DNA of 51,246 bases from Deltaproteobacteria bacterium (GTDB lineage Bacteria > Desulfobacterota > Deferrisomatia > Deferrisomatales > BM512). Of the stretch, positions 29,437 to 47,785 are shown in pieces (position 1 is the first letter of the stretch; each line of letters starts with the position of its first letter). The position numbers were made by a program, and so were the translations under genes. Location of the stretch: the NCBI GenBank assembly GCA_002869015.1, contig PKTT01000035.1, positions 1-51,246 on the forward strand, written 5' to 3'. The notes beneath the pieces are model-generated. The model was not told the DNA's origin. It made no database searches and saw only the letters and a list, made by a program, of their open reading frames with translations.

Positions 29437-29443
29437 ATAAAAA

Positions 29444-29474
29444 ACGGGAGCGGTGCTCTAAGCACTGCTCCCGT
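29444..29474 (-). terminator. strong terminator of the minus-strand peptide transcript
   Basis: A 14-bp hairpin (ACGGGAGC-G-GTGCT / AGCAC-T-GCTCCCGT, loop CTA, one G-T pair). On the minus strand it is followed by TTTTTTATTT, so it ends minus-strand transcription. On the plus strand it is followed by C and A6, so it is a poor terminator for the helicase gene. Confidence 0.85.
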
Positions 29475-29554
29475 CAAAAAACCGTCTCAGAGCGCAATCC
29501 TCCAACCCTCATCGACGAAAAACCGCCCCATCGCCAACTTGTGACGCCAGGGTC

Positions 29555-29605: not shown

Positions 29606-29665
29606 TCAGCAGGGGTGTACGCTGGACTGGCCTGTTACGCGAGGTTTCACATAGCGTGTTTTCAT
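29606..29665 (-). CDS. 19-aa candidate RiPP precursor peptide
   Basis: The short gene reads MKTRYVKPRVTGQSSVHPC then UGA. The start is ATG 29665, eight bases after the ribosome site GGAGG (29678-29674). An earlier ATG (29672) in another frame is only one base from the ribosome site and gives a less sensible peptide. A Tyr-x-x-Pro motif (YVKP, residues 5-8) resembles leader motifs that RRE/PqqD-like domains bind, and the end SSVHPC would be the core. The gene is 128 bp downstream of a radical SAM/SPASM maturase and PqqD-like gene on the same strand and has its own terminator. That it is a modified peptide is inference; no homologue is known to me. Confidence 0.5.
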   Translation of the reverse strand: MKTRYVKPRVTGQSSVHPC

Positions 29666-29734
29666 TTTTCATTCCTCCCTATTTTCAGGGTTCGCGTTAA
29701 CTCCACTTATTTAAATACTCTTGCCTTGCTTAAA

Positions 29735-29793: not shown

Positions 29794-30777
29794 CTATTCT
29801 TTCCAGCAGTGGGGGTCAGGGGCATTAAATGAACCGGTAGTTGCCAGCGCCCTTGCGGTGCACCCACCAAGACACTCTCCATAAACTGAACAGCCTACGC
29901 ATTTTCCTGTGGCTTCCTTATTGCGCATCTGGTTTAACACATCGGAGTCGTTCCAAATCTTTTTAAGCCCATCAGTCAAAATATTTCCAAGGGATAGAGG
30001 GATGAATCCGCATGGTGTAGCATCGCCGTCAGGCTCCAGATGCAGTGAAAGCTTGCCACAGGTTGACCCCTTTACCGCCGCCGCAGACTCCTCCCCCAAA
30101 AGGGCGATGACAGGGTCATCAAAGGCTAAAGCGCAGGGGGCATCGTCGCGCCAGGCCAAAGCATCTTCATAAAAATCACGCCACTCGGATGGAGAAAGAT
30201 CGAGCTCCTCCCTGTTCTCCATTCCTCTGCCGGAACATTTGAAGTTGTGGAGGTATACAGTACCTGCACCGCTATCGGCAGCCTGAGATACTATCTCTTT
30301 ATAGCGCGTAACATTTCCTTTGAAAATCACTGTGCTCACGGTTGTTGGAACACCAGCAGCGCATAGGTTTTTCAGGGCGAGGTGAGCCCTGTCATAGCTG
30401 CCGGGACGGTCACGGAATCCATCATGAGTTGGAGCATCGGCGCCATCTATGGAGATGCCTACGGACCGAAAGCCGGCTTTGGCGCAATTACTTGCAGCCT
30501 CCTCATCGATGAGCCAGCCATTTGAATTCATCGTAACCTTTAAACCTTTTTTTGTAGCGTGTTCAGTGACTTCAAAGAGGTGCCGGTAAAGAAGCGGTTC
30601 ACCCCCGCCAAAGTTCACGAAAGCTATGCGAGCTTGTGACAAGGCATCTACGACCTTTAGGTTTTCCTCAAGTGCCAACTCTTCCTTCTCAATATCCCGA
30701 GAATAGCAGTGGCGACATGAGAAGTTACATGCGTATGAGAGAGTCCAATTAACAGTAAGCGGTGCTGATAACTTCAC
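29794..30777 (-). CDS. radical SAM/SPASM peptide maturase (GeoRSP-like)
   Basis: The 327-residue protein has the radical SAM CX3CX2C motif at C17, C21 and C24 (CNFSCRHC), the GGGEPLL SAM-binding stretch near residue 58 and a C-terminal SPASM domain with seven cysteines (TCGK, TPCGF, KCVGCSVYGECLGGC, PHCWKE), enough for two auxiliary 4Fe-4S clusters. This build is typical of enzymes that modify ribosomal peptides (PqqE, AlbA, and the GeoRSP family as I remember it). A GTG start follows GGGGAG by seven bases. It is 15 bp after the PqqD-like gene, its probable substrate-presenting partner. The likely substrate is the 19-aa peptide downstream, which is inference. Confidence 0.88.
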   Translation of the reverse strand: MKLSAPLTVNWTLSYACNFSCRHCYSRDIEKEELALEENLKVVDALSQARIAFVNFGGGEPLLYRHLFEVTEHATKKGLKVTMNSNGWLIDEEAASNCAKAGFRSVGISIDGADAPTHDGFRDRPGSYDRAHLALKNLCAAGVPTTVSTVIFKGNVTRYKEIVSQAADSGAGTVYLHNFKCSGRGMENREELDLSPSEWRDFYEDALAWRDDAPCALAFDDPVIALLGEESAAAVKGSTCGKLSLHLEPDGDATPCGFIPLSLGNILTDGLKKIWNDSDVLNQMRNKEATGKCVGCSVYGECLGGCTARALATTGSFNAPDPHCWKE

Positions 30778-30792
30778 AATTCATCTCCCCGA

Positions 30793-31104
30793 TCAGGCAA
30801 GCCAGCCTTTTTCGTCACACTCAGCGATAAATTCTCTAACGTCTTCGATTATCTCTTCAAAGGGGGCGTCATATCTTTCAACGAGATCATTCGCCACGCC
30901 AGCTTCATCAAGGGTGCCGTCCAGGAGGAGCCATATCTCTCCGGCAAGTAAATTAAGTTGGTGCATTGAGCCCTTGTCTATAATTATGACCCAGCCTTTA
31001 TCCGCCGCGCTTTCGTCACCCGACATAAGGGCATTTAAGATAACCTCTCGCTCCTCTGGTTCGTCACGCCAGACGAGGTCAGGGTTTCTCGAAAGTTTTT
31101 TCAT
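30793..31104 (-). CDS. PqqD-like peptide chaperone (RRE domain)
   Basis: The 103-residue protein matches PqqD-type RRE proteins in size and pattern: an N-terminal strand region (NPDLVWRDEPEEREVIL), the SMHQLNLLAGEIWLLLDGTLDEAGVANDL segment (the usual xLNxTGxxIWxLLDG motif) and the C-terminal helix EEIIEDVREFIAECDEKGWL. Such proteins bind the leader of a RiPP precursor and pass it to the radical SAM enzyme, whose gene follows. It overlaps the 3' end of the beta-helix gene by 26 bp, so translation is coupled. An acidic N-terminal insert (about 20-40) is longer than in PqqD. Confidence 0.85.
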   Translation of the reverse strand: MKKLSRNPDLVWRDEPEEREVILNALMSGDESAADKGWVIIIDKGSMHQLNLLAGEIWLLLDGTLDEAGVANDLVERYDAPFEEIIEDVREFIAECDEKGWLA

Positions 31105-31918
31105 CGCGCCTCTCCGTTTTTTTGCTTAAATCTAGCTCGGGGTCTGTTTTTACAAGACCAACCCCCGCTGAATCTTTGCCATCAAAGATTTTGACTCCCC
31201 CAAGAGCGGGAGAGGTCATCCACCAATTGGAGGACGCATTCACATCCTCCTCCTGTAGCTCGCCCAGCTTGATATCGTACTCAGCGTTGGCGAAATAATT
31301 TTTTGCTATGGAAATGTCGCGGATACCTTGCCGTAAAAATATTCCGGTCAGATTCTCGCTAAAGTCGCATGAGCTAATTGTTACGCCCTCGGCGTTTAAT
31401 AACCTCATTCCGATTTTATTGGCGGAAAAAACAGATCCGCTAACTTCGAGGTTGTCGCTGCTTGAGCGTATGCCCCCGTAACCCTCCATAAAGCGGGAGT
31501 TTTCAATAAGCGTGGGGGTGTCATGGATATGAAGCGCCCAGCCCGCACCGATGAAATGACCGTAAGAGATCTTTGCGCTTTTGGCTGCTAGCAGGTTGAA
31601 CATATCCTGTGTCGACTTTTGCACCGTCTTGTTCGCTACTTTAAAGATAACAGGGGCAGATGCTGTCCCCCCTATTTCTATACTTCCCTCAACCAATATC
31701 CAGGGAGTAGGCTCAAACTCCTCGCTGGAAGGAATATCAAAGGTGACCTTCGTTCCGGGAGTTATCTGAAGGTTGGCATCCTTTAACACGTGGAGGGGCT
31801 TAGTAACCGCAATCTCGCCCGACCATTTAGTATCTCTTTCGATATCTTCAAACCCGGACTCGCCGGCAAAGAGCGAAAGCGGCATTAAAAGCATCGTAAG
31901 GAGCGCGAATAACCTCAT
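31079..31918 (-). CDS. periplasmic right-handed beta-helix protein (NosD-like)
   Basis: The 279-residue protein has a Sec signal peptide (residues 1-18, ending LFAGE). Repeated short strands follow in the parallel beta-helix pattern (ITPGTKVTFDI, GSIEIGGTASAPVIFK, ISYGHFIGAGWALHIHDTPTLIENSRF, LEVSGSVFSANKIGMRL, GVTISSCDFSENLTGIFLRQ), with an NWW motif near the end (ASSNWWMTSP) as seen in NosD-type and related proteins. It is too short for a pectinase and lacks catalytic acidic clusters that I can recognise. NosD helps copper delivery to nitrous oxide reductase; a similar metal or cofactor role here is inference. It overlaps the YedE gene by 4 bp. Confidence 0.8.
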   Translation of the reverse strand: MRLFALLTMLLMPLSLFAGESGFEDIERDTKWSGEIAVTKPLHVLKDANLQITPGTKVTFDIPSSEEFEPTPWILVEGSIEIGGTASAPVIFKVANKTVQKSTQDMFNLLAAKSAKISYGHFIGAGWALHIHDTPTLIENSRFMEGYGGIRSSSDNLEVSGSVFSANKIGMRLLNAEGVTISSCDFSENLTGIFLRQGIRDISIAKNYFANAEYDIKLGELQEEDVNASSNWWMTSPALGGVKIFDGKDSAGVGLVKTDPELDLSKKTERRDEKTFEKP

Positions 31919-32970
31919 GCCCGCCGCCTTGTAAGGCTGAAAGCGCCTAGTAGCGCAAATCCAATTAGCACTGCTGCCTTACCCTGTGCGGTTACACCCG
32001 CAGAGGATGCATCCAGACTCCACAATTGGACCGCAGCAGCGCCTGAGAGCATACCGACTGTCATCATCCAGCCATCCAGATCACCCTCCCCGGCTTTTAT
32101 CAACTGGCGGAATGGGCAACCACCCGCAAGGACCGCCGCCCATCCGGTAAGCGCCATGCCTGCAAAACCCCAAAGAGGTTCAAGGTGTGCCCCAGGCTGG
32201 TCGAAGTAGCCGGGGTGGAACTGCCCTGTGAGGAGATTTGCTAAGAGTGCCCCACCAAAAGCGAAATAAAGGCCAAGCCCCGCTTTGGGTGAGTGTGTAA
32301 GGATAACGTCCCTAAGCGATCCGGTGACGCAGAATCTTGAACGCTGGCAAACAGCGCCAAGTATCAACCCTGCCATGATCGATACCAGGGTAGGGGCATG
32401 CATCGCTCCGCCACCGGTTTTTGATTCCAAAAGGTATCCTGCCGCTCCAAGTATAGTAAGGAGCAGAGTGGCTCCCAGTGCGGCTAACACAAGAGGTGTC
32501 GATCCCTCCCGCGAGGTGCCGAATATTTTTGTTTCCGGCCCCCTGAGCGTTTGCAGCCCTACCATCACTCCCGCTATAAGCCCAAAGAGACCTGAGACTG
32601 CGGCCAAGTCTCCCCCCGCCAGGCGAAAGAGTAATTTGATTGGGCAGCCGATGAAGACGGCTGAGCCGACTATCATCATAAAGCCCAAAGTAAAGCCGCC
32701 CAGCCCCGAGCCCTTGGAGTGGACTTTGAACTCTCTTTTTGCTATCGCAGCCAGAAATGAGCCAAGTATGAATGCCGTAAGTTCGGGCCTGAAGTAGCGC
32801 ATCCTTAGATCGTCATGGAGTCCCATCGCGCCTGCGGAGTTCTCCATGAAGCATGAGATACAAATTCCCGTGTTGGGAGGATTTCCCAAAAAGGAGAGTA
32901 GGCTACCGAAGACCCCCAGCAGTAACCCGGCGGCAACAATCCATTTCATGTCGCGGGAAAGAGCCATCAC
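31915..32970 (-). CDS. YedE/FdhT selenium-associated YeeE-family membrane protein
   Basis: The 351-residue protein has about ten membrane segments and two copies of the YeeE/YedE repeat. The motifs match the YedE/FdhT subgroup (which I remember as TIGR04112, a phylogenetic marker of selenium use): GNPPNTGICISCFMENSAGA near the start, FIGCPIKLLFRLAGGD, CQRSRFCVTGSLRD, and AGGCPFRQLIKAGEGDLDG. Conserved cysteines line the pore in the related thiosulfate transporter YeeE. It probably moves a sulfur or selenium species across the inner membrane. Start is GTG 32970 or ATG 32967, overlapping the TPR gene stop. Its place in a radical SAM peptide operon is the best clue to a selenium or sulfur role. 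Confidence 0.85.
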   Translation of the reverse strand: MMALSRDMKWIVAAGLLLGVFGSLLSFLGNPPNTGICISCFMENSAGAMGLHDDLRMRYFRPELTAFILGSFLAAIAKREFKVHSKGSGLGGFTLGFMMIVGSAVFIGCPIKLLFRLAGGDLAAVSGLFGLIAGVMVGLQTLRGPETKIFGTSREGSTPLVLAALGATLLLTILGAAGYLLESKTGGGAMHAPTLVSIMAGLILGAVCQRSRFCVTGSLRDVILTHSPKAGLGLYFAFGGALLANLLTGQFHPGYFDQPGAHLEPLWGFAGMALTGWAAVLAGGCPFRQLIKAGEGDLDGWMMTVGMLSGAAAVQLWSLDASSAGVTAQGKAAVLIGFALLGAFSLTRRRA

Positions 32971-33437
32971 TCGCAGCCCCCGTTTAAAGCTCTCAAAAGT
33001 CCATTGACCCCTGAAAGCTCCTTTGTATTACGTCCTCTCCAGGGGCCGCGCTTTAGCGCCTCCATATTCATCAATATCGTTTTTTTCGCGTTAAAGGGGC
33101 CGCCAGCGTCGCCCAGAGTTCGGTCGGCTTTTAGCGCCATGCGGTAGTTGTCGACTGCGCTGGTGTAAGCGCCTTCTTCATAGGCGAGATTGCCTAATAG
33201 ATAAAGAGCCCCGCCTTTATGCGGTCCCTTCTCTGCTCGCTTCCTTAGGAAGAGGAGGGTTTCTTCTCGCTTGCCGTCTTTAAGCGCTTTTAGGGCAAGA
33301 GAATAGGAGCGCTCAACTTCCTGCGGATCGGAGGTTATGCATGCTCTATCATCGCCGGGTTTAATCTGTCTGGCGTAATAAGCTCCTCCCGCGAGGGAGA
33401 GGATTATTAAAAGCGGTAGCAGGATTCGCAACCTCAA
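32967..33437 (-). CDS. membrane-anchored TPR protein, 156 aa
   Basis: The product has an N-terminal membrane segment (about residues 5-22, LLPLLIILSLAGGAYYA) and two or three tetratricopeptide-like helical pairs (SYSLALKALKDGKREETLLFLRKRAE, GGALYLLGNLAYEEGAYTSAVDNYRMALKADR). Two cysteines (residue about 33 and the penultimate residue) are present. It probably faces the periplasm and serves as a scaffold for neighbouring envelope proteins. It overlaps the PhnD-like gene by 4 bp and the YedE gene by a few bases. Confidence 0.75.
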   Translation of the reverse strand: MRLRILLPLLIILSLAGGAYYARQIKPGDDRACITSDPQEVERSYSLALKALKDGKREETLLFLRKRAEKGPHKGGALYLLGNLAYEEGAYTSAVDNYRMALKADRTLGDAGGPFNAKKTILMNMEALKRGPWRGRNTKELSGVNGLLRALNGGCE

Positions 33438-34333
33438 TACTCCTCATAGGGAGGCATTTTGGCTATCCTCGCCCAGTTATCGACAGTTTTAAAGTCCTCC
33501 ATGGAGAGGCGTTCGAAGCCATCGATGAATGCCCTTTTATTTACAAGAATCCGCTCATCGCCAACTAGAGCGGTAGTCTCGCCATCTAAGGAAAGCAGTG
33601 CTTCGCGTACCTTCTCCGCCCACTCACCGCTCACCTCGGCTGAGACACCATAAGTGCAATAGGGAGCAAGATCTGAGGCAGCGATAACCCTGAAATCATC
33701 ATGAGAGACACGCCCGTCGGAGGTCATCTCTTCAAGGTCGATTAGGGGTGCGGCGCCTGCGTCGTAGGCTCCGTAGAGGACTGAGTAGATGATCTTCTCA
33801 TGTTTCCAGTTGCCGCGTGGGAAGCCGTAGGGACCAAGGTCATCTTCCGGGTTGATCCCCCCTGTAAGCAGCGTGGCATACTGGGAGAGGAAACCAAAAG
33901 GAGCCCATTGAGGACCGAAGAGCAATCGTTTGCCCTTAAGGTCAGCGAGGGTTTTTATTTCGGAGTCGCTTCTGACGATGATAGTTCCCCGTGATAGCGC
34001 TCCATAGGTGCCGCGCTTCTCCGATGCGAGGAGCTTCACGCCGTGTCTTTTGGCGAGGGTTATGAAAAGCAGGGAGTTTGTGTGGGTAAAATCTATGTCA
34101 CCTTTTTTATAGGCTTCTTCAAAATCTACTGTGTCTAGGTATACTGACTCAAAGTTAGCTCCAGTGGCCTCGGATAAATATGCTGTTAGACCCTCGAAGC
34201 GGCCCTTCGATTCTTCAAGGGAGTTGCAGATCATGTAGGCAACCTTAAAGGTCGGCTTTTCTGCCTCACAGCCTGTAAGCAGTAAGGGGAGGGTCAAAAG
34301 CAGCAAAAGGGTTGCAATAGCTCTTTTAATCAC
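33434..34333 (-). CDS. PhnD-like substrate-binding lipoprotein
   Basis: The 299-residue protein has a lipoprotein signal with lipobox LLTG-C (Cys about residue 22) and the PhnD/SsuA-like periplasmic binding fold (FEGLTAYLSEATGANFESVYL, DFTHTNSLLFITLAKRHGVKLLA, TIIVRSDSEIKTLADLKGKRLLFG, YGAYDAGAAPLIDLEEM, FRVIAASDLAPYCTYGVS). PhnD proteins bind phosphonates, phosphite or other oxyanions; the ligand here is unknown. No ABC ATPase or permease is in the operon, so it may act as a sensor or scavenger rather than a transporter part. GTG start at 34333 overlaps the preceding gene by 8 bp. Confidence 0.82.
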   Translation of the reverse strand: MIKRAIATLLLLLTLPLLLTGCEAEKPTFKVAYMICNSLEESKGRFEGLTAYLSEATGANFESVYLDTVDFEEAYKKGDIDFTHTNSLLFITLAKRHGVKLLASEKRGTYGALSRGTIIVRSDSEIKTLADLKGKRLLFGPQWAPFGFLSQYATLLTGGINPEDDLGPYGFPRGNWKHEKIIYSVLYGAYDAGAAPLIDLEEMTSDGRVSHDDFRVIAASDLAPYCTYGVSAEVSGEWAEKVREALLSLDGETTALVGDERILVNKRAFIDGFERLSMEDFKTVDNWARIAKMPPYEEY

Positions 34334-34790
34334 TTTTTACCGCAGCCTTTCGCGCCGACTTTCTTGGGTTGTCACCCATGGCGTTTTCATTGAATTGTTC
34401 CGAAGTCAGAAATGATGATGCCCTTGCCAAGGCCCTCTCCACCGTCGTAAATCTCAAATCGTCAAGAACCTCAGGGTTTAGCCAGAAGGTAACCTTTCCC
34501 AACCCCTCTACAGCAGCGCCGGTCCTCTCTTCAACCCCTCGGGGCAGTGAGTCCTCGCCAACTTCCAGCCAAAGGTCGATTTCTCCATTCAGGATTGCCG
34601 ACTCCCCATCCGCTACCTCCACGAAGCGAGGGGCAATTCCCGTTTTCTCCTCAACGTAGTAGCCAACCGAATAGGCGGTATATGTTTGGAGTCCGGCATC
34701 GGGGGGAACGCCAACTCTAAGCTCGGCGCCGAAGCAGGCCAATGCCAAGGTGGGAACAAGTATAGATAAAAGAGTGTTAAATAGTCTCAT
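34326..34790 (-). CDS. short periplasmic substrate-binding-like protein, 154 aa
   Basis: The start is ATG 34790, just after the stop of the polyferredoxin gene; a longer frame to 34937 only runs through that gene. The signal peptide ends near LALAC-FGAE, which could also be a lipobox. The mature part begins LRVGVPPDAGLQTYTAYSVGYYVEEKTGIAPRFVEV and continues DLWLEVGE, the first lobe of a substrate-binding fold, but at about 130 residues it is half the normal length and ends in a basic tail (NPRKSARKAAVKSD). It overlaps the PhnD-like gene, which could supply a partner lobe. It may be a shortened family member or a truncated remnant. Confidence 0.65.
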   Translation of the reverse strand: MRLFNTLLSILVPTLALACFGAELRVGVPPDAGLQTYTAYSVGYYVEEKTGIAPRFVEVADGESAILNGEIDLWLEVGEDSLPRGVEERTGAAVEGLGKVTFWLNPEVLDDLRFTTVERALARASSFLTSEQFNENAMGDNPRKSARKAAVKSD

Positions 34791-34797
34791 CTGCCCT

Positions 34798-36237
34798 CTA
34801 TCTCCCGGGGAAAAGCCAGTGTTGGAGTAGTGCCGCAAAAAGTATGGAGATGGAGAAATAACTTGAGAGACCAAAGAACCTCGATATGTTCCCCGGCAGG
34901 GACCTCCAGCTACTGCGCATCTCGAATACGCCTGCAATCACGCCACATCCAAGCAATGAAAGGGCAACCCACCTGAGAATGTATAGGTGCAGGATCATAT
35001 CAGGCAATGGTAACGTATCCGCAACATGTATCGCCAAATATGTCTCTGCTCCGGTGGGGTCGTAGGGTAGGTAGGTCAGGTAGAGTGCTTTGGCATTTAG
35101 CTTAACAAGAGCCAGCGCCATATGCCCCCCAAAAAGCGGTCCTATAAATGGTATGGCTGAGGTGCGCGCCATGGACCAGAAACCTTCACCAACAGCTGCT
35201 TTTGAGTCGTTGGGAGAGGTTACCTCGCTCCCTGAAAGTGTCTTGGTGAGTGCGCCGATAAAAGCAGGTGCAAAGATGATCACCGCCGGTAGTACCAAGC
35301 CCAGCCATAGGTAGGTCAAGCGCTGTGAAGGGTTTACCGAAGGGGTTATGTTAATGGAGAAGGCCGGCCATGTTCTAGCAAGCGCCAGCGTAACGAGACC
35401 TGTGAGTAAGACCAAAAGAATGAGCGCAGCTGTTGAGAGCTTGCCGCCAAGGGGTCTGGCTCCATAGAAAAGGCCAAGGTTTTCCGAGGGGCAGCGCCTT
35501 ATACATTCCATGCAGAGCTGGCAGCGGGTGGCGTCCATCTTTGGGGGATATAGCCCCACAGGGCAGCCCCCCGTAGAGAGCTTTCTGTGGAATACTCTCC
35601 CGCTAATGCTCCAGCGCCGCCATGAGGTTTCACGCCTGACACAAGCGCCATTATTGCAGGTTTTACAAAGCTCGGGGTTTATCGCCGCCACCTTCACAGG
35701 GGAGAAGCGGGAGTAAAGTGAGAGAACTACCCCCACCGGACAAAAGAGCTTGCAGAAGGGCGCGCCACGCCATAAGAAGCCGCTTAGCGCTGCAAAGAGC
35801 GCCGCTATCCCGACTAAAATTGCCGTAGCGTGAGGGGATTTATGAACGTTCCAAGAGAGTGCTCCGCCCATTCCTGCTAGGAAAATTATGATCATCCCCA
35901 GCCAACCGCCCCAACTTCTTGGCCAAGGCGCAGCGCGCCCCATTTTGGCGAAGCGCTCGGTAATATAGCCAAGCGGGCAGATTGAGCACCAGAGCCTCCC
36001 TAGCAGCGGCACCGTCAAAACCAACCCCATGAACCAAATTACCCAGAAGATAAGTGTCGTCGCATTGGTGTAGATAAGGGGCCAGCGGTCAGGTATGCCG
36101 GGTATGGCCTCCCTGCCCCAGGCAATCGTAAGAAGGTAGATGAGTGACAAGATGGCAAAGCCCTGCACGGTCCGCTGATAAATGGGGTTCTTAATCAGCG
36201 GCTTTGTGATTTTGGCTTTGTAAAGGTTAAGCGCCAT
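34798..36237 (-). CDS. NapH/NosR-like polyferredoxin membrane protein
   Basis: The 479-residue inner-membrane protein has about nine hydrophobic segments and several Cys motifs: CSICPLGY (about residue 84) and CKLFCPVG (about 163), the CX3CP pair of NapH/NosR/CcoG-type proteins; then CKTCNNGAC, GGCPVG and a ferredoxin-type CQLCMECIRRCP (about 240-252). Such proteins take electrons from quinol and pass them through Fe-S clusters to periplasmic acceptors. The C-terminal third (about 280-479) is a further membrane part not seen in NapH. It is the only evident electron-input protein of this operon. Confidence 0.88.
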   Translation of the reverse strand: MALNLYKAKITKPLIKNPIYQRTVQGFAILSLIYLLTIAWGREAIPGIPDRWPLIYTNATTLIFWVIWFMGLVLTVPLLGRLWCSICPLGYITERFAKMGRAAPWPRSWGGWLGMIIIFLAGMGGALSWNVHKSPHATAILVGIAALFAALSGFLWRGAPFCKLFCPVGVVLSLYSRFSPVKVAAINPELCKTCNNGACVRRETSWRRWSISGRVFHRKLSTGGCPVGLYPPKMDATRCQLCMECIRRCPSENLGLFYGARPLGGKLSTAALILLVLLTGLVTLALARTWPAFSINITPSVNPSQRLTYLWLGLVLPAVIIFAPAFIGALTKTLSGSEVTSPNDSKAAVGEGFWSMARTSAIPFIGPLFGGHMALALVKLNAKALYLTYLPYDPTGAETYLAIHVADTLPLPDMILHLYILRWVALSLLGCGVIAGVFEMRSSWRSLPGNISRFFGLSSYFSISILFAALLQHWLFPGR

Positions 36238-36257: not shown

Positions 36258-37181
36258 CTAATGATAAAGCGAGTCCGGGACCTTCCACTCGCCTGAAAAA
36301 GTTTTGTACTCAACAGGGTTGCCCTCAAAAAGCGCCATTGCCCTTGCCGACCATTCGCGAACAGCTTTTACGGGGTCTTCAGCCCTAAGATAGTCAAGCT
36401 TTGCCTTAGCGTCATCTTCCTGAAGAAGGCCCACCGCTCTTGCCGCCTCAACCCTGACACGCCAATCTTTGTCATCAAGGTAGCTTAGGGTATTAATGGA
36501 CTCACCTATACGACCCATTGTGCCAAGGGCCCAGAGGGCATCTTCGCGAGTCACCGGATCATCCAGCGCCTTTATTATGTAAGGCTTGCCCCGCTCATCT
36601 CTAAGCTCTCCCAATACCCTCAAAGTGTAACCCTTACGAAGGGGAGGCATCTTTTCCAGATTTTTAGCCAAAGGGATCACCGCTGATTTGCCGAAGCGCG
36701 CAAGTGCCCGCACCGCCTCCCTCGCCGTAAGCTCACCTTTAGAGGATAGTACAGCGTCGGCGAGGGGCTCGATGGCTTTGATGTCACCAATTTCACCAAG
36801 CGCCCAAGCGGCTGAGTGGCTGCGGGGGAAAGAGGGGTCGTTGAGCGCATTTACAGCCGCTTCAAAGCTACCTTCTAATTTTAGATTGGCTGCAAGAGCG
36901 ATCGCATGCTCCCGCTGAGAAGGGTCCCCCTCAGCGGCGGCTGCCATAATTGCCGGTGCAGCATCCCTCCCGGCTTTGAGCAGGGCGATATATGCCCGTG
37001 ACCGTTCTGCCTGGCTCTTATCCTCTACCATGAAGTCAAGGAGCCCCTTGTAAGCAGCTGAATCCCCAGACGCCGCTCTCTCCTCAAGGGCTTTGAGGGA
37101 GGGGGGAGGGCCGTTACCAGAGCAGCCTATCAAGAGGAGCGCGGTTACGATTAGCAGGTAAAAGTTTGCCCGGAGCATCAT
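36258..37181 (-). CDS. HEAT-repeat lipoprotein
   Basis: The 307-residue protein has a lipoprotein signal (LLIG-C, Cys about residue 20) and a chain of HEAT/PBS-lyase-type repeats from about residue 90 to 285 (SHSAAWALGEIGDIKAIEPLADAV, AREAVRALARFG, REDALWALGTMG, RVRVEAARAVGLL, REWSARAMALFEG). HEAT repeats form protein-binding solenoids, so this is probably a periplasmic scaffold anchored to a membrane. It follows the carboxypeptidase-regulatory-like gene directly and precedes the polyferredoxin by 20 bp. No catalytic motif is visible. Confidence 0.8.
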   Translation of the reverse strand: MMLRANFYLLIVTALLLIGCSGNGPPPSLKALEERAASGDSAAYKGLLDFMVEDKSQAERSRAYIALLKAGRDAAPAIMAAAAEGDPSQREHAIALAANLKLEGSFEAAVNALNDPSFPRSHSAAWALGEIGDIKAIEPLADAVLSSKGELTAREAVRALARFGKSAVIPLAKNLEKMPPLRKGYTLRVLGELRDERGKPYIIKALDDPVTREDALWALGTMGRIGESINTLSYLDDKDWRVRVEAARAVGLLQEDDAKAKLDYLRAEDPVKAVREWSARAMALFEGNPVEYKTFSGEWKVPDSLYH

Positions 37182-37931
37182 CTACCAGACTGTATGGACC
37201 GTTATGTCCACACCCTCTAAGGTGTTACCATCCTCAACGATAACCGCAGATGGCTCAACTGTTCCCATATAGTAGCGTCCATAAAGGTCCCCTACCTTAG
37301 GCGGGCCGCCGTACTGGTCTCGGGCGCAGAGATAATAAGTGCCGCCTTCCGGGAGGTTGAGTTCATATCTGCCGTCCGGCCCCGTTCTCGCGGAAACGAA
37401 CTTTGGACGCTCGGACATCTGGACATGGTCGTATGCGTGTACCCTTACGCCCTCAACTGGGCCCCCCTCCGCATCGGTTATCCTGCCCTCCAGCCTTGCT
37501 TTGTATTTTACCTCTTCTCCGAAGCTCTCTTTTGCGTTGCCCTCTTTGATGAAGCCCTTCAAATCTAGTGATATAGGTCTACCTGCCGCTACTACAACCT
37601 TGATTGGGTCGGTCTTAAGGTCGCCCTCTTTTACAGGTCCCGAGTCATCGCCCTCTGCTCGTTGCCTGAGGAGAAAATTGTACTCTCCCGGCGGCAGGTC
37701 TACCGAGAAGGAGCCATCAAAGGCTAGGGGCCCGATTCGTGTCATCGGCGGCCCCCTGAAATCATCACCTACGCGATAAACATATATAGTAGCGGCCTCA
37801 GCGGGGCGGTAGGCTATTCCGCTTACCGTAGAGAGGGCGGTAGGATCGCCTTCGGGGGCCTTTGAGCTATCGCAACCGGCCAGGGCTAACGCCGTTAGTA
37901 TAAAAAGAAAACAAGGTATCAATCTCTTCAT
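37182..37931 (-). CDS. carboxypeptidase-regulatory-like beta-sandwich lipoprotein
   Basis: The 249-residue protein has a lipoprotein signal (ALAG-C, Cys about residue 20). Two Ig-like beta-sandwich regions follow: one (about 40-130) with FDGSFSVDLPPGEYNFLLR, and one (about 150-249) with the CarboxypepD_reg pattern RLEGRITDAEGGPVEGVRVHAYDH ... ARTGPDGRYELNLPEGGTYYLCARD. Such domains bind partner proteins or surfaces. No enzyme part is attached. It adjoins the HEAT gene (stop and start adjacent) and lies 4 bp after the EB_dh-type gene. Confidence 0.8.
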   Translation of the reverse strand: MKRLIPCFLFILTALALAGCDSSKAPEGDPTALSTVSGIAYRPAEAATIYVYRVGDDFRGPPMTRIGPLAFDGSFSVDLPPGEYNFLLRQRAEGDDSGPVKEGDLKTDPIKVVVAAGRPISLDLKGFIKEGNAKESFGEEVKYKARLEGRITDAEGGPVEGVRVHAYDHVQMSERPKFVSARTGPDGRYELNLPEGGTYYLCARDQYGGPPKVGDLYGRYYMGTVEPSAVIVEDGNTLEGVDITVHTVW

Positions 37932-37935
37932 TGCT

Positions 37936-38934
37936 TCAATCCTCGGGGGGAGGAGTTATGCTCCCCGGTTCAACAAGCTTTAAGCGCAGCGGAATGCGCC
38001 CGGCGTTGTGGTCATTGCCAACTCCGTCCAGTACCGCCACGCCAAAGAAATATTCGCCACCGGGGGAGAATGTTACATCCCCTTTGCCGACAGGTGTAAG
38101 GGACCTCGATATAGTCACCACCCAGCGCCCCTCTAAATATTTACCAGTAGCGCTGACCTCAAGCCTGTCATAGCTTCCGTCAGCGAGGAGTTCACCGGGC
38201 GCTACTGCATCAATGCTCTCATGAGGATGTTTTATCGGTGCGTCCCCTTCACTGAAAGTATTCTCCTGGCCGCTTTCTGCCTTCTTAGAGTTGGGAGTAA
38301 ATAGCTCCCATGTATCTCCGGTATCGCTAACGCGCCCCCTCTCCGAGAGGGTGGCATCCTCCGCCATGCCACCTGGCGCGCCTCTGCCTGAGCGCCATAT
38401 CCAGAAGTCTTTAACTGTGTTGGTTTGCGTCTCCATTGCGAAGTCAGCGGTGGCTTTCATCTCCCCCGCCATCCTCCAATCTTTCAGATGGCAGGAGTGG
38501 GCGCAGTCAAAGTTTTTATTTTCACCCCAAAGTATACCCGCTCCATCTTCACGCCCATCGCCGGAGGTCCAATCAGCACCGTTCCAGCGCCAGCTATGCC
38601 CCAGATCCATCGTGGGGTCTTTCCACTCAAGGCGCATGTAAAAAGTCGATGGTGTGTAAAATGCCTTGACTGTCATATCTACCGGGGGTGCGCCGGTACC
38701 GTGATGGCAGGAAGCGGTTGCAACATGGACGGAGTCCTCGTCCACCTCCGATTCTTTTTTCTGACTCGTTGCGCCCCCGCTAGCTTCAAGGCGGAGAGGC
38801 ACCGCCGCCGCCCACTCTCTCTCTGTTGGAGTCGAGGAGAGCTGAAGGGCATAAACGGTGTCACTCTCAATGGAACATCCAGCAATAAATAGGGTTAGCG
38901 CCATTAGCGCCAAAACAGGCAAAGTTTTGTGCAT
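37936..38934 (-). CDS. ethylbenzene-dehydrogenase-type haem-binding lipoprotein
   Basis: The 332-residue protein has a lipobox (FIAG-C, Cys about residue 20) and an EB_dh/DOMON-like haem-binding domain: AVPLRLEA, VDMTVKAFYTPSTFYMRLEWKDPT, and a C-terminal GEYFFGVAVLDGVGNDHNAGRIPLRLKL. It contains CAHSCH (about residue 145), a CX3CH arrangement, and ASCHHG near residue 73, but no standard CXXCH. The family holds b- or c-type haem in periplasmic electron transfer. It is the first gene of the operon; its ATG lies only 13 bp after a terminator hairpin, with no strong ribosome site. Confidence 0.75.
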   Translation of the reverse strand: MHKTLPVLALMALTLFIAGCSIESDTVYALQLSSTPTEREWAAAVPLRLEASGGATSQKKESEVDEDSVHVATASCHHGTGAPPVDMTVKAFYTPSTFYMRLEWKDPTMDLGHSWRWNGADWTSGDGREDGAGILWGENKNFDCAHSCHLKDWRMAGEMKATADFAMETQTNTVKDFWIWRSGRGAPGGMAEDATLSERGRVSDTGDTWELFTPNSKKAESGQENTFSEGDAPIKHPHESIDAVAPGELLADGSYDRLEVSATGKYLEGRWVVTISRSLTPVGKGDVTFSPGGEYFFGVAVLDGVGNDHNAGRIPLRLKLVEPGSITPPPED

Positions 38935-42832: not shown

Positions 42833-44287
42833 TTATGCCTTGGGAAACTCCGGCAGGTCTATATCGGCCATCTGCTGAAGAAGGCGCATCAGCTGACAAG
42901 TATAACCATACTCATTATCGTACCAAACATAGAGGACTACGTTATGAGGGTCCGCTTCATTTACGATGGTAGCCTGACCGTCAAAAACACCTGCGTGGCG
43001 AGAACCAACTATATCCGAAGATACGATATCTGCGGAGTTCGTGTAGTCAATCTGGGTCTGTAGGGGGCTATTAAGGGATATTGATCGTATATAGCTGTTG
43101 ATGTCCTCTTTTGAGACCTTCTTTGCCAGAGAGAGCTTTAATATGGCTAGTGAAACGTTTGGAGTGGGAACCCTTATCGCATTACCGGTGAGCTTACCCT
43201 TCAGCTCAGGAAGAACCTTTGCCACAGCGGAAGCCGCTCCCGTCGAGGTTATGACCATATTAAGGGATGCGGCACGACCGCGCCTTGGTTTGCTGTGGTA
43301 GTTGTCAATAAGGTTTTGATCGTTGGTATAGGAGTGACAGCTTTCAATATGGCCGCTAACAATGCCGTATCGCTCGTCCATGACCTTCAAGATTGGGGCG
43401 ATGGCGTTAGTTGTACAGCTTGCCGCTGAAACAATTTTTTCACCGGGGGAAAGCTGATCGTTGTTTATTCCAAATACTATATTAGGGATATCACCCTTGC
43501 CAGGGGCAGTTAGTAGAACCTTCTTCACGCCCTTACCCTCAAGGTGCCTGGAGAGCCCCTCGCTATCACGCCACCTGCCGGTGTTGTCCACAACGATTGC
43601 GTTATCTATTCCATAGCGGGTGTAATCCATCTCCTCAGGGGGTATGGAGTCAATTAGCCTCATCATGTTGCCGTTGGCAATTAGCGCCCGCTCCTCATGG
43701 TCGACCTCCAAGGTGCCTTTGAAGGTCCCGTGAACGGAGTCCAGCCTGAGGAGTGCGGCGCGCTTTTCAAGGTCGTCGGCCCCCTGATTTCTGACCACGA
43801 TCCCTTTGGGGCGTATCTTGTCGCCGTTTCCGATCTTATCTAGTAGCACCCGCGCCACGAGGCGGCCTATTCTGCCGAACCCATAAAGAACCAGATCCTG
43901 TGGGCTCTTGAGCACAGGATGTTTGCCGGTGCATGCGCTGGCGAGCTCCTTGTCAAGGAACTCCTTAACGGAGCTTGTCCCTGAGTGGAGAAATTTATGC
44001 GTAATTTTTCCGAGGTCTATTCGGCATGGACCAAGGTCCATCTTGGCAATCTGCTCAAGAACGGGCAGGGTATCCTCAACAGTCAGCTCTTCACCCGTTA
44101 CCAGCAGGCCGTAGCGGTGAGCCTTTAAAACGTCAAGGGAGCTTACCTTGGCGATTGACCTGCCATAGACATGGATGAGTACGCCGCGTTCCAAACGCAG
44201 TTCGTTGAGCGGTGCCAACATTTTATTGGCGATTACTTCGTAGCGAGCCCATTTTTCAAAGTAGAGATCACCTTTGGTGAGGTCCAT
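42833..44287 (-). CDS. long-form glyceraldehyde-3-phosphate dehydrogenase
   Basis: The 484-residue protein has a normal GAPDH core from about residue 128 (VLYGFGRIGRLVARVLL) with catalytic Cys in SAASCTTNAIAP, the general-base His in ESCHSYTNDQ, and WYDNEYGYTCQL at the C-terminus. About 125 extra residues precede the core. Such long forms exist in pseudomonads and some other bacteria. It probably oxidises glyceraldehyde-3-phosphate; the direction in vivo is not known. It is divergent from the XRE-cupin gene and behind a clear GGAGG site. Confidence 0.93.
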   Translation of the reverse strand: MDLTKGDLYFEKWARYEVIANKMLAPLNELRLERGVLIHVYGRSIAKVSSLDVLKAHRYGLLVTGEELTVEDTLPVLEQIAKMDLGPCRIDLGKITHKFLHSGTSSVKEFLDKELASACTGKHPVLKSPQDLVLYGFGRIGRLVARVLLDKIGNGDKIRPKGIVVRNQGADDLEKRAALLRLDSVHGTFKGTLEVDHEERALIANGNMMRLIDSIPPEEMDYTRYGIDNAIVVDNTGRWRDSEGLSRHLEGKGVKKVLLTAPGKGDIPNIVFGINNDQLSPGEKIVSAASCTTNAIAPILKVMDERYGIVSGHIESCHSYTNDQNLIDNYHSKPRRGRAASLNMVITSTGAASAVAKVLPELKGKLTGNAIRVPTPNVSLAILKLSLAKKVSKEDINSYIRSISLNSPLQTQIDYTNSADIVSSDIVGSRHAGVFDGQATIVNEADPHNVVLYVWYDNEYGYTCQLMRLLQQMADIDLPEFPKA

Positions 44288-44304
44288 CTTTGGCTATCCT
44301 CCGG

Positions 44305-44315
44305 GGAAAATTTCC
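44305..44315. promoter_or_regulatory. dyad in the GAPDH/XRE divergent region
   Basis: GGAAA-A-TTTCC, an 11-bp dyad in the 140-bp region between the long GAPDH start and the regulator start. It overlaps the leader of the GAPDH gene and might bind the neighbouring XRE regulator. Confidence 0.25.
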
Positions 44316-44427
44316 GACAAAATTAGAGGGAGGAACTATACACGATCTTTTTTATACGTTAAAAAAGAAAAAGGAATTTTTACCGAATATAGCATCCATA
44401 ATGTACAGCGCAAGGACGGGTAGCCAA

Positions 44428-45027
44428 ATGAAACGCATGGACCCCGAGGTTGAAGAATTAGGGATTGGCAGGAAGATAAGGTCATTGCGAAAGCAGCTTG
44501 ATTTTACCCTCCAGCAGCTCTCCGATAAAACAGGACTCTCTAAACCGCTCCTGTCACAGGTAGAAAACGGCCATGTGGTGCCGCCCGTTTCAACGCTGAT
44601 GAGGATCGCCAAAGCGCTTGGCGTAAATATCTCCTTCTTTTTCCAGGATGAGGAGGAGGACGTCAAGGTGTCCGTCACCCGCGCCAGCGAAAGGCATGAG
44701 GTTGGCCCTCGCCCACACCACCCAAACGATGAAGTGGGTTATAGCTATGCCTCCCTTGAGATACATAAGGCAAGGAAGTCGATGCAGCCTCTCATGGTTA
44801 CCTTCGGCAGGGAGGAGGGAGACGCGCTGAGGTTTTACAGCCACGAGGGTGAGGAGTGCGTTTACCTGATCGAGGGGCAAGTCGAGTTTATCTCTGATGA
44901 GGGTAACTGGACGCTTGATGTTGGCGACTGCCTCTATTTCGACTCGGAGATTCCACATGCGTTGAGAACCGTCTCGGATAAGCCTGCTAAAGCGCTTATC
45001 GTTTTGTTTCCGGGGAGGAAACTTTAA
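44428..45027 (+). CDS. XRE-family regulator with C-terminal cupin domain
   Basis: The start is set at ATG 44428 (MKRMDPEVEELGIGRKIRSLRKQ); the frame is open from 44290 but that region overlaps the divergent promoter area. The helix-turn-helix lies at about residues 15-70 (TLQQLSDKTGLSKPLLSQVENG). The cupin barrel at about 110-195 (EGEECVYLIEGQVEFI, DVGDCLYFDSEIPHAL) would bind a small ligand. Similar regulators control amino-acid, polyamine or redox genes. It is joined directly to hpt (stop followed by ATG). Confidence 0.9.
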   Translation: MKRMDPEVEELGIGRKIRSLRKQLDFTLQQLSDKTGLSKPLLSQVENGHVVPPVSTLMRIAKALGVNISFFFQDEEEDVKVSVTRASERHEVGPRPHHPNDEVGYSYASLEIHKARKSMQPLMVTFGREEGDALRFYSHEGEECVYLIEGQVEFISDEGNWTLDVGDCLYFDSEIPHALRTVSDKPAKALIVLFPGRKL

Positions 45028-45549
45028 ATGGCCGAAGATTTAAAAATTTTATTCACCAAGGAAGAGATCGCCGAGGCAACAGCAACTATTGCTGAGGAGA
45101 TAAATCGTGATTACGAAGGTAGAGAAATTGTGCTCTTAGGAATATTGACGGGGGCTTTTCTCTTTCTTGCGGACCTTGTGAGGCTAATTAAGGTTGATTG
45201 CAAGATAGATTTCGTCCGCCTTTCTTCATATGGCAATGATACCGCCTCAAGTGGGAAGGTGGAGAAGTTGATGTCCCACAAGCTGGACCTGACCGGAGCC
45301 AATGTAATTGTTGTCGAGGAGGTGGTGGACACTGGCTTGACGCTCAGTTATTTTTTAGAAGACTTAAAGTCTTCTGGGCCAAAAGAGGTCAAAGTTTGCT
45401 CACTCGTCGATAAAAGGGAGTGCAGAAAAAAAGAGATTGAAATTGATTACGCCGGTTTCGTGATAGAGGATGGTTTCCTTCTAGGTTACGGGATGGACCT
45501 TGCAGAGCGCCTGAGAAATCTACCCGATATCAGAGTGAAGGAAGATTAA
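45028..45549 (+). CDS. hpt: hypoxanthine phosphoribosyltransferase
   Basis: The 173-residue protein has the HPRT flexible loop and PRPP loop. VVEEVVDTGLTLSYFL is the PRPP-binding motif (usually VEDIIDTGLT) with the first acidic pair changed to EE. LLGILTGAFLFLADLVRLI is the N-terminal strand-loop, and LVDKRECRK and GFVIEDGFLLGYGMDLAERLRNL complete the fold. It salvages hypoxanthine and guanine with PRPP. It follows the XRE-cupin gene without gap and precedes the small rubredoxin-like gene by 20 bp. Confidence 0.92.
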   Translation: MAEDLKILFTKEEIAEATATIAEEINRDYEGREIVLLGILTGAFLFLADLVRLIKVDCKIDFVRLSSYGNDTASSGKVEKLMSHKLDLTGANVIVVEEVVDTGLTLSYFLEDLKSSGPKEVKVCSLVDKRECRKKEIEIDYAGFVIEDGFLLGYGMDLAERLRNLPDIRVKED

Positions 45550-45569
45550 CAGAGAATAAGGAGTGAATT

Positions 45570-45680
45570 ATGGCTACCTGGAAATGCCCCGACTGCGGCT
45601 ACGAGCGTGACTCGCGCTGTAAACCAAAGAAATGTCCCGATTGCGACAAGCCTGTCACCTTCGAGAAAAAAGAGAGCTGA
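45570..45680 (+). CDS. RCKP-type rubredoxin-like protein, 36 aa
   Basis: This short gene starts at ATG 45570 behind AAGGAG and ends at TGA 45680. The product has two CPxC knuckles, CPDCG and CPDCD, joined by a short turn with SRCKPKKCP. I remember a named family of RCKP-type rubredoxin-like proteins with this form. Five cysteines are present; four would bind one Fe or Zn. It may be a small electron carrier or a metal-binding adaptor. It is the last gene of the XRE-cupin/hpt operon and is followed by a terminator. Confidence 0.85.
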   Translation: MATWKCPDCGYERDSRCKPKKCPDCDKPVTFEKKES

Positions 45681-45683
45681 TTG

Positions 45684-45712
45684 AAACCGCCCTAAAGGGC
45701 GGTTTCTTTTTG
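45684..45712 (+). terminator. intrinsic terminator after the RCKP gene
   Basis: A perfect 9-bp hairpin AAACCGCCC / GGGCGGTTT with loop TAAA, followed by CTTTTT. Confidence 0.92.
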
Positions 45713-45776
45713 GCTGTTTATAGTAGAGGTGGTATTAATTTTGTAGCTGATCATTAAGTTCAACCGGGAGCTGATT

Positions 45777-46790
45777 ATGTCGCTGAAAGTTGGGATAGTA
45801 GGTTTTGGAAGGATAGGCAGAGCGCTATTTAGGCTTGGTTTTGACAGGCCGGGGATAGAGTTCGTGGCCATTTGTGATGATGGCGATGCCGATTCGCTCC
45901 TTTATCTTCTTAACCACTCAACAGTTGAAGGCGCTTTTGACTCTCCTGCGAGGCTCGTGGGGAATCACATAGTCGATGGGAGTCAGCGGGCGAGGATAAT
46001 GAAGCAATCAAAGCCCGGCGCGGTTCCTTGGGATAGCCTAGGCGTGGATTATGTATTTGATTGCACAGGCGAATATCGCACTGAAAAAGAGCTCTCAAAG
46101 CACTGCGAAGCGGGAGCCCGTCTGGTGATATCCTCTACGCCCTCTTCGGATGCTTCTATTCCTGTAATAGTAAGAGGGGTGAATTGCGCCGGGGTTACAG
46201 GGGACGAGGTGATAATCTCCTGTGGATCATCATCGATACATGCGCTCTCCCTGGTACTAAAGGTGCTTATCGATGGCCCAGGTGTTGACGCCGCGACGAT
46301 GACCTCGGTCCATGCATATACAGGGAATCAGCATCTCTCAGACTCTGCCAGCGTATCGCTCAGGTGGAGCCGTTCAGCGGCCCAGAACATAATTCCCAAT
46401 GAAACCTGGGCTCCTGAGGTTGCTTCCTCTTTGCTACCGAAGTTAAATGGCAAAATTGATGGCTTAGCGCTGAACGTACCCGTAGCGGCGGGTTCCAATA
46501 TCGACCTTGTAACCAAGCTCGGAAAGGCTTTGAGCGTAGAAGAGGTAAACGCTCTCTTCTTAGAGGCTTCACAGGGGGCGATGAAGGGGCTCATGGGCTA
46601 TACCGACGCACCAATCGTCTCCAGTGATGTAATTGGGGACCGTCATTCGGCGCTTTTTGACTCCAACGCTACCCTTTCTATGGAGAGCGGACTTGTCAAA
46701 ACGCTCGCATGGTTTGACAACGGTTGGGCTTTCGCCGAGAGGATGCTCGAAACGGCTGAGATCCACGCGATAAGGGGAGGTGCCCTGTGA
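45777..46790 (+). CDS. GAPDH paralogue lacking the catalytic cysteine
   Basis: The 337-residue protein aligns with GAPDH over its whole length (VGIVGFGRIGRALFRLG, LLYLLNHSTVEGAF, SVHAYTGNQHLSD, SSDVIGDRHSALFDS, WFDNGWAFAERML). At the active site, where the next gene has SNASCTTNCMAP, this one has SCGSSSIHALSL: aligned from the conserved following helix, the catalytic Cys is Ser and the Asn is His. A Cys occurs three residues earlier. The general-base His is kept. Normal catalysis is unlikely; a regulatory or NAD-binding role is possible. Its stop overlaps the start of the intact gap gene, so the two are made together. Confidence 0.88.
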   Translation: MSLKVGIVGFGRIGRALFRLGFDRPGIEFVAICDDGDADSLLYLLNHSTVEGAFDSPARLVGNHIVDGSQRARIMKQSKPGAVPWDSLGVDYVFDCTGEYRTEKELSKHCEAGARLVISSTPSSDASIPVIVRGVNCAGVTGDEVIISCGSSSIHALSLVLKVLIDGPGVDAATMTSVHAYTGNQHLSDSASVSLRWSRSAAQNIIPNETWAPEVASSLLPKLNGKIDGLALNVPVAAGSNIDLVTKLGKALSVEEVNALFLEASQGAMKGLMGYTDAPIVSSDVIGDRHSALFDSNATLSMESGLVKTLAWFDNGWAFAERMLETAEIHAIRGGAL

Positions 46791-47785
46791 GAGTCGCTAT
46801 AAACGGCTTTGGGCGTATCGGGCGTTCAATCTACCGTCTCCTAAATGAAAAAGAGGGGTTTGAGGTGGTCGCGGTAAATGACTTGGCTGACCCTGCCGCC
46901 CTTGCTTACCTGCTAAATCACGATACCGTCATGGGCAACTTCGAGGACAGCGCCATAATTGAAGATGGGGAGATGGTTACGGGGCATCAGCGGACCAAAA
47001 TGCTCTCCGAGCGCGATCCGGCAAAGCTGCCATGGCGGGAGCTTGGGGTCGACTATGTCATTGAGGCCACAGGTGTTTTCCGAGATCTGGAGAAAGCCGC
47101 GCTCCACCTTGATGCTGGCGCCGGGAGGGTTATATTGACCGTGCCGGCAAAGGGGGAGGTTGATGCAACGGTCGTCCTAGGCGTCAATGAGGAGACGATT
47201 ACTCCTGAGTGCAGGGTGATCTCCAACGCCTCATGCACCACAAACTGTATGGCGCCTGTTGTAAAGATTCTGCATGAAAACTTCACCATTCTTTCAGGTC
47301 TTATGACCACCGTGCATGCCTATACCAATGACCAGCGTCTGGCGGACGTGCCCCACTCGGACTGGAGGCGATCACGCGCTGCGGCGGAGAATACCATTCC
47401 CACAACTACAGGGGCCGCGCGCGCTGTGGGTGTGGTCTTGCCGGAGCTAAAGGGGAAGCTGGATGGAATGGCGATGAGGGTGCCCATACCTGACGGATCG
47501 GTAGTTGATCTGGTAACTGAGGTTTCCCGTGATGTAACTGTCGAAGAGGTGAACGCTGCGATCCGTTCAGGCGCTAATTCTCCGTCAATGAGAGGTGTGC
47601 TCCGCTACTCGGAGGGGCCCCTTGTCTCAAGCGATATAGTCGGAGATCCCCACTCGGCGATCTTTGATGCCCCCCTTACGCAGGTTATAGGTGGAAGGTT
47701 GGTTAAGACAATCTCCTGGTATGACAACGAGTGGGGCTATTCAAACAGGGTGGTCGACCTCATAGAATATCTTGCGGGGTTATAG
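46787..47785 (+). CDS. gap: glyceraldehyde-3-phosphate dehydrogenase
   Basis: The 332-residue protein is a standard GAPDH: NAD-binding INGFGRIGRSIYRLL, catalytic Cys in SNASCTTNCMAP (about residue 150), general-base His in TTVHAYTNDQRLAD, and WYDNEWGYSNRVVDLI at the end. It oxidises glyceraldehyde-3-phosphate to 1,3-bisphosphoglycerate. GTG start overlaps the preceding paralogue (GTGA). The phosphofructokinase gene converges from the other side, 3 bp away, and pgk is not present. Confidence 0.97.
   Translation: MRVAINGFGRIGRSIYRLLNEKEGFEVVAVNDLADPAALAYLLNHDTVMGNFEDSAIIEDGEMVTGHQRTKMLSERDPAKLPWRELGVDYVIEATGVFRDLEKAALHLDAGAGRVILTVPAKGEVDATVVLGVNEETITPECRVISNASCTTNCMAPVVKILHENFTILSGLMTTVHAYTNDQRLADVPHSDWRRSRAAAENTIPTTTGAARAVGVVLPELKGKLDGMAMRVPIPDGSVVDLVTEVSRDVTVEEVNAAIRSGANSPSMRGVLRYSEGPLVSSDIVGDPHSAIFDAPLTQVIGGRLVKTISWYDNEWGYSNRVVDLIEYLAGL

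Follow-up and report, generated by a model that had tools for sequence, protein, structure and literature searches.

A conserved 19-residue peptide ending in Val-His-Pro-Cys is a probable substrate of the orphan GeoRSP radical SAM/SPASM maturase

Among the described systems that combine a radical SAM enzyme with a PqqD-type protein, GeoRSP (TIGR04302, TIGR04303, TIGR04304) comes closest to the locus reported here. It is a named radical SAM/PqqD system whose maturase is an orphan: the curated libraries that we searched hold no peptide family for it. In mycofactocin, a related system, the precursor MftA ends in VY. The role of PqqD proteins as RREs has been described previously (PMC7470986). We analyzed a 51,246-nucleotide stretch of DNA from a Deltaproteobacteria bacterium (contig PKTT01000035.1; hereafter the window), in which a PqqD-like gene, a radical SAM/SPASM gene, a peptide gene and a downstream hairpin follow one another in this order on the minus strand. 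The 327-aa radical SAM/SPASM protein (29794-30777) scores 406.8 bits against the GeoRSP maturase model TIGR04303 (cut-off 400). The 103-aa PqqD-like RRE protein (30793-31104) matches PF05402 (E 1e-14) and scores 60.9 bits against TIGR04302, below the cut-off of 100; judged by its sequence, it would be a divergent member of the GeoRSP PqqD type, with a predicted PqqD role. Its phmmer match to the ABC ATPase 1vpl (E 6e-6, for 30796-31104) is probably due to chance or composition.

The peptide gene (29606-29665, minus strand) opens with an ATG at 29665 and encodes the 19-aa peptide MKTRYVKPRVTGQSSVHPC before a TGA stop at 29608-29606. Ordinary annotation overlooks this gene, and annotation pipelines miss the peptide because its length is under 22 residues. 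A ribosome binding site, GGGAGG (29674-29679, minus strand), lies 8 nt 5' of the ATG, and similar sites also precede the peptide genes of relatives. Downstream, on the same strand, a terminator-like hairpin followed by a T run occupies 29443-29475 (dG -23.8 kcal/mol, z = -7.0); a simple terminator scan left it unflagged, and the promoter/terminator scan yielded nothing useful. An earlier reading of this DNA from its letters alone (the sequence-only reading) had claimed the 19-residue frame, a strong ribosome site, SPASM radical SAM and PqqD genes upstream and a strong minus-strand terminator, and we found all of these. Its start at 29672 had to be corrected to 29665, as the ATG at the former position opens a different, out-of-frame 26-aa frame. 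In the window genome this is the single peptide copy, placed directly behind its maturase and last in the operon. Within the peptide, a YVKP motif of the form Y/FxxP (29642-29653) is the proposed leader contact for the PqqD/RRE protein, and the C-terminal VHPC (29609-29620) is the proposed modified core. A riboswitch or other known RNA in the intergenic stretch was considered and rejected, given that Rfam returned nothing credible and that the fold after the stop has z = 0.17.

The sequence of this short frame is conserved as protein, and we regard it as practically certain that it is a real coding gene. An identical peptide is encoded by a second genome (G002) whose maturase is only 73% identical to that of the window genome, and the two peptide genes differ at eight synonymous and no amino-acid-changing positions. 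Around the gene, the identity between these two genomes falls to 55% in the spacer before it and 49% in the next 60 nt, and the DNA just past the stop drops to 49-61%. The identical peptide, the exclusively synonymous changes and the drop in flanking identity together place the gene far above chance. The same frame occurs behind the maturase in clusters of the same genus, family and order as well as in distant families, with peptides such as MKKVRYIKPSITGQSSVHPC, MKKIPYVKPRIAGTSSVHPC, MKKYMKPRVVGSSNVHPC and others. We aligned 59 copies (47 distinct peptides of about 20 residues), nearly all of which end in Val-His-Pro-Cys. Across them, third codon positions are free to vary, and codon positions 1 and 2 of VHPC are nearly fixed. 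The Y/F and the P of the leader motif are present in 59/59 copies, although these counts, like those of the H and C columns, are partly fixed by the search patterns used. An unbiased test of the C terminus comes from a search that fixed only N-terminal features and length and left the last seven residues free: 53 of its 55 matches end in VHPC, the two exceptions being one VHLC and one unrelated frame. The VHLC copy (L179, G306 C2, position 1472) has a near-identical relative in G268 that ends in VHPC, and probably reflects either decay of the copy or an error in sequencing. In another genome (L135, G008 C69, 827-2799), three tandem peptide-like copies lie within 2 kb and adjoin other radical SAM genes; two have no good start and one carries LHPC, suggesting recent duplication and decay. 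The sequence-only reading had named, as the finding that would support it, a conserved short frame near homologous maturases with a YxKP leader and a C-terminal HPC, and this test came out positive. Of the maturase-bearing genomes, 11 have such a frame immediately behind the enzyme gene and 14 others have it at another location; in its Y/FxxP leader as in its HPC, it is the protein sequence and not the DNA that is conserved. That part of the leader and core proposal stands, with the conserved end extended to VHPC, whereas the basic residues to which it assigned the leader vary more than Y/F, P and G do. The peptide family is matched by no model in Pfam or NCBIfam.

We then asked how the peptide is distributed with respect to the maturase among 395 genomes of the phylum. 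The pattern Y/FxxP...VHPC-stop found 61 copies in 28 of these genomes, and the reversed pattern, used as a control, found none; a match in G305 was left out for lack of a start codon. With maturase presence defined as a TIGR04303 match at E <= 1e-80 (26/395 genomes), the peptide is present in 25 of the 26 positive genomes versus 3 of the 369 negative ones (Fisher p = 3.5e-35, a value that overstates independence because the genomes are related). The full tally is 25 genomes with both, one with the maturase only (G009), three with the peptide only (G010, G249 and G362) and 366 with neither. The link still holds within families: f28 has two genomes with both genes and three that lack both, and f30 has three with both, 11 that lack both and one in which only the peptide is present. 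Four further named Deltaproteobacteria or Geobacter genomes, fetched via the maturase, carry two or three peptide copies each, and no copy was found in nine genomes with only distant (25-34% identical) maturase relatives. A relaxed search at E <= 1e-20 turned up no enzyme of GeoRSP grade in the three peptide-only genomes. Of these, G010 is 81% complete, G249 is a draft of 120 contigs and G362 one of 450; other peptide carriers in the family of G362 do have the maturase. The genome with the maturase and no peptide is 92% complete, in about 150 contigs.

In the maturase itself, the CX3CX2C motif, seven SPASM cysteines and Cys181 are invariant in 19 orthologues. Other NCBIfam models (MftC, AhbD, NirJ2 and others) score far below their own cut-offs. 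The folds nearest to its AlphaFold2 model (pLDDT 79) are those of SkfB, BlsE, SuiB, PqqE, viperin and anSME; SkfB, SuiB, PqqE and anSME modify peptides or proteins. SkfB is its best PDB match by both sequence and fold.

The genes around the maturase form a conserved cassette on the minus strand. It comprises a secreted beta-helix, NosD-like protein (31079-31918), a YedE-family putative selenium/sulfur transporter (31915-32970; TIGR04112 333 bits, cut-off 200), a small TPR protein (32967-33437) and a PhnD-like periplasmic binding protein (33434-34333; PF12974 E 1.2e-42). In relatives of the window, the order PhnD-like, YedE-like, beta-helix, PqqD, maturase is kept, usually with the small TPR protein included. 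Further upstream in the window lie an ORF with a conserved C-terminal half (34326-34937; no Pfam match in the scanned part 34329-34727), a NapH-like membrane ferredoxin protein (34798-36237) from a family that also adjoins peptide copies in L143 and L144, a HEAT-repeat lipoprotein-like protein (36258-37181), a carboxypeptidase-regulatory-domain lipoprotein-like protein (37182-37931) and an ethylbenzene-dehydrogenase-type heme-binding (EB_dh) protein (37936-38934; PF09459 E 4e-25), all on the minus strand. Elsewhere in the window, at 42833-47785, three glyceraldehyde-3-phosphate-dehydrogenase-like ORFs lie within 5 kb and adjoin a phosphofructokinase-like ORF (by eye). Distant cassettes add a TIGR04304 SPASM partner, a cysteine desulfurase (TIGR01977, L167), ResB, an ArsP_1-type permease, FmdE, NikR, CbiM or NicO. 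The TIGR04304 partner scores 336.8 in L074 (cut-off 300) and matches weakly in L167, and none was found among the seven window cassette proteins scanned. These genes suggest the handling of sulfur or selenium, metals and electrons across the membrane, and they leave the function of the system unfixed. In Geobacter-type genomes (loci L188, L189, L159 and L154), NikR, CbiM or NicO stand beside the cassette, and a NikR gene lies directly 5' of two peptide copies (L188 and L189), a hint at nickel or cobalt. The SAO organometal system was considered for the SaoE-like permease and set aside, that weak match being its sole backing.

Many genomes carry several scattered peptide copies, up to six in G287. 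We sorted the copy neighborhoods ourselves, using crude longest-ORF gene calls that make lengths and some neighbors in the following counts approximate. Directly behind the maturase lie 11 copies, in 11 genomes; those away from it often follow giant secreted proteins at 24-118 bp. Giant secreted multiheme cytochromes, or fragments of these, precede 13 copies by 24-115 bp, with 11-34 CxxCH motifs where long stretches were read and PF09698 in L160. Another seven copies follow Big_1/fn3 proteins with a lipoyl-like C-terminal domain, two follow fn3 giants, two follow propeller proteins and five adjoin FG-GAP/UnbV proteins; the remaining copies have other or unclear neighbors. Away from the maturase there are approximately 48 copies, and upstream of 22 of these stands a giant cytochrome, a Big_1/fn3 protein or an fn3 protein, whole or in fragments, which links the peptide to the extracytoplasmic side; in 19 of these 22 the upstream ORF is at least 900 aa long. 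The giant cytochromes are only partly paired with the peptide: in G159, PF09698 proteins are numerous, and the single peptide does not adjoin them. In G228, G268 and G306, a peptide copy away from the maturase stands beside homologues of the NapH, HEAT, carboxypeptidase-regulatory and EB_dh proteins, and these shared loci tie this redox module to the peptide. The cytochromes that precede peptide genes in L184, L185, L187, L160, L161 and L143 share a C-terminal tail resembling ...NCH...WN.K(T/S).W. In L132, L140, L163 and L136, the Ig-like/fn3 secreted proteins 5' of the peptide end in a biotin/lipoyl-like domain in which, by eye, the modified lysine is absent.

We propose that the peptide is very probably the substrate of the orphan GeoRSP maturase, given that its family occurs almost only in bacteria carrying that enzyme. 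The peptide gene is coding and conserved, it is found in the same genomes as the maturase and it sits in the maturase cluster; the full SPASM cysteine set, the RiPP-maturase-like fold (SkfB, SuiB, PqqE) and the PqqD-like partner lend further support. These findings also support the interpretation of the sequence-only reading, a radical-SAM-modified peptide, in which the modification itself is inferred. Against a substrate role stand the multi-copy genomes, which place most copies beside secreted proteins and not beside the maturase, the three genomes with the peptide and no detected maturase, the one with the reverse, and a PqqD protein below the equivalog cut-off. As a substrate, the peptide would be made in the cytoplasm; the PqqD-like protein would hold its Y/FxxP leader, for which the YxxP of lasso leaders offers an analogy, and present its C terminus to the radical SAM/SPASM enzyme, which would abstract a hydrogen in or near the invariant V-H-P-C and modify the peptide there. 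The product may then work outside the cytoplasm, either as a redox- or metal-active peptide or as a cofactor cut from it, and we consider it rather likely that it acts there with the adjacent secreted redox or metal proteins (multiheme cytochromes, EB_dh, NapH, FG-GAP and Ig-like proteins). As for the chemistry, the solved enzymes nearest to the maturase make thioether or carbon-carbon links, and the families that score nearest include decarboxylating enzymes (MftC, AhbD). On these grounds we favor a change centered on the cysteine, without certainty. By analogy, our leading, if tentative, candidate is a thioether that would join the terminal Cys to a residue before it, such as Val; oxidation of that Cys, by an MftC-like oxidative decarboxylation or in another way, seems less probable, and a carbon-carbon or other crosslink among His, Pro and Val would be a weaker candidate still, on a par with some different reaction altogether. 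It is conceivable, and we put it forward as a speculation of some weight, that one maturase modifies in trans several dispersed peptides of 18-20 residues, many of them encoded behind giant cytochromes or other secreted proteins, and that the product is a dedicated cofactor, cap or metal-binding accessory and a hidden component of extracellular electron transfer.

Other explanations differ from a GeoRSP substrate either in the fate of the product or in the nature of the gene. A sub-case of the substrate explanation is that the peptide gives rise to a small redox cofactor able to diffuse, as MftA does for mycofactocin and PqqA for PQQ; after modification of its C-terminal residues by the maturase, a peptidase would free a VHPC-derived molecule for many redox proteins. 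Next to GeoRSP, MftC is the family that fits the maturase best (195 bits), redox proteins are abundant in the neighborhood, and the conserved part is the very end of the C terminus, as has been described for mycofactocin (PMC3023750). Precursors of the mycofactocin type, however, are normally single and beside their maturase, while here up to six dispersed copies lie by secreted proteins, and we found no dedicated peptidase among the cassette proteins scanned, so we consider this fate unlikely, if plausible. Slightly less probable in our view is a metal-binding peptide, matured or unmodified, whose C-terminal His and Cys would bind nickel, cobalt or copper while the cassette moves metal and sulfur species. 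NikR_C and CbiM beside YedE in L159, NicO in L154, the NikR genes upstream of copies in L188 and L189, the ArsP_1 permease of L074 (a relative of the SO_0444 and SaoE efflux families) and the retention of YedE and PhnD in most cassettes all agree with it. The metal genes, though, were seen in some Geobacter-type clusters only and were not identified among the window cassette proteins scanned, and the window cluster, with NapH and EB_dh, points to electron transfer.

That most copies in multi-copy genomes adjoin secreted proteins would also fit a small structural or regulatory partner of those proteins, sharing a pathway with the radical SAM enzyme and not its substrate. We regard this as improbable in view of the near-perfect co-occurrence with one maturase, the lack of a signal peptide, the Y/FxxP leader beside a PqqD-like protein and the invariant reactive C terminus. 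Far less probable again are two readings that we reject. In one, selenocysteine is inserted at the UGA that follows HPC, and the peptide would run through Cys-Sec and continue; selenium-type genes are nearby, an in-frame extension is open in the window and the stop is TGA in 50 of the 59 copies. The other copies end in TAA (eight) or TAG (one), as do 7 of 10 copies in separately fetched genomes, nothing is conserved past the stop and no Rfam element was found. The free third positions and the use of all three stops show HPC to be the true C terminus and exclude selenocysteine. In the other, equally negligible reading, the frame arose by chance or serves as a regulatory leader (attenuator) and its peptide does nothing, as a very short frame next to a terminator might suggest; this is contradicted by amino acids conserved with free third positions, by its place as the last gene in the operon here and by its recurrence in unrelated contexts.

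The family appears to be without earlier description in Pfam, NCBIfam or the open-access literature searched, where queries on GeoRSP, GeoRSP-type gene sets and VHPC-type sequences returned nothing relevant and RiPP mining papers dealt with other systems; a description beyond open access is possible. GeoRSP thereby gains a defined, synthesizable candidate substrate in more than 25 genomes, which makes its chemistry directly testable. Furthermore, the extra copies beside giant multiheme cytochromes suggest that electron-exporting bacteria may need a ribosomally made, modified peptide.

The locus shares features with several known systems. As in mycofactocin (MftA, MftB, MftC), the precursor is short and conserved at its C terminus, the RRE protein is small, the radical SAM/SPASM enzyme is of a related kind and the context is one of redox proteins (PMC3023750), but the maturase reaches 195.3 bits against an MftC (TIGR03962) cut-off of 265, the precursors are multiple and dispersed, and the peptide ends in VHPC. 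PQQ (PqqA, PqqD, PqqE) likewise has a very short precursor, a PqqD and a SPASM radical SAM enzyme, and PqqE is among the nearest folds; unlike PqqA, the peptide has no Glu and no Glu/Tyr core, and the maturase scores 113.6 bits against TIGR02109 (cut-off 381.35). With SbtA/SbtM thio(seleno)oxazole maturation it has in common the radical SAM maturation of small Cys peptides and a selenium-type setting, whereas the maturase scores 90.2 bits against TIGR04082 (cut-off 350) and the peptide has no selenocysteine. Membership in the mycofactocin, PQQ and SbtM families was rejected on these scores. The sactipeptide/ranthipeptide-type systems (SkfB and relatives) also have a Cys-containing substrate, and SkfB is the best PDB match, but here a single C-terminal Cys is found in 19 residues, no export cassette was seen and the SkfB model scores 94 (cut-off 300). 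GeoRSP differs in that the window PqqD protein falls under the TIGR04302 cut-off, though it matches the PqqD family PF05402, and in that no TIGR04304 partner was seen among the window proteins scanned, whereas Geobacter-type members do have one. The locus agrees with GeoRSP in a maturase that exceeds the TIGR04303 cut-off and in the PqqD-family protein next to it. As in radical SAM/RRE RiPP systems generally, a short conserved peptide gene is linked to a maturase and an RRE.
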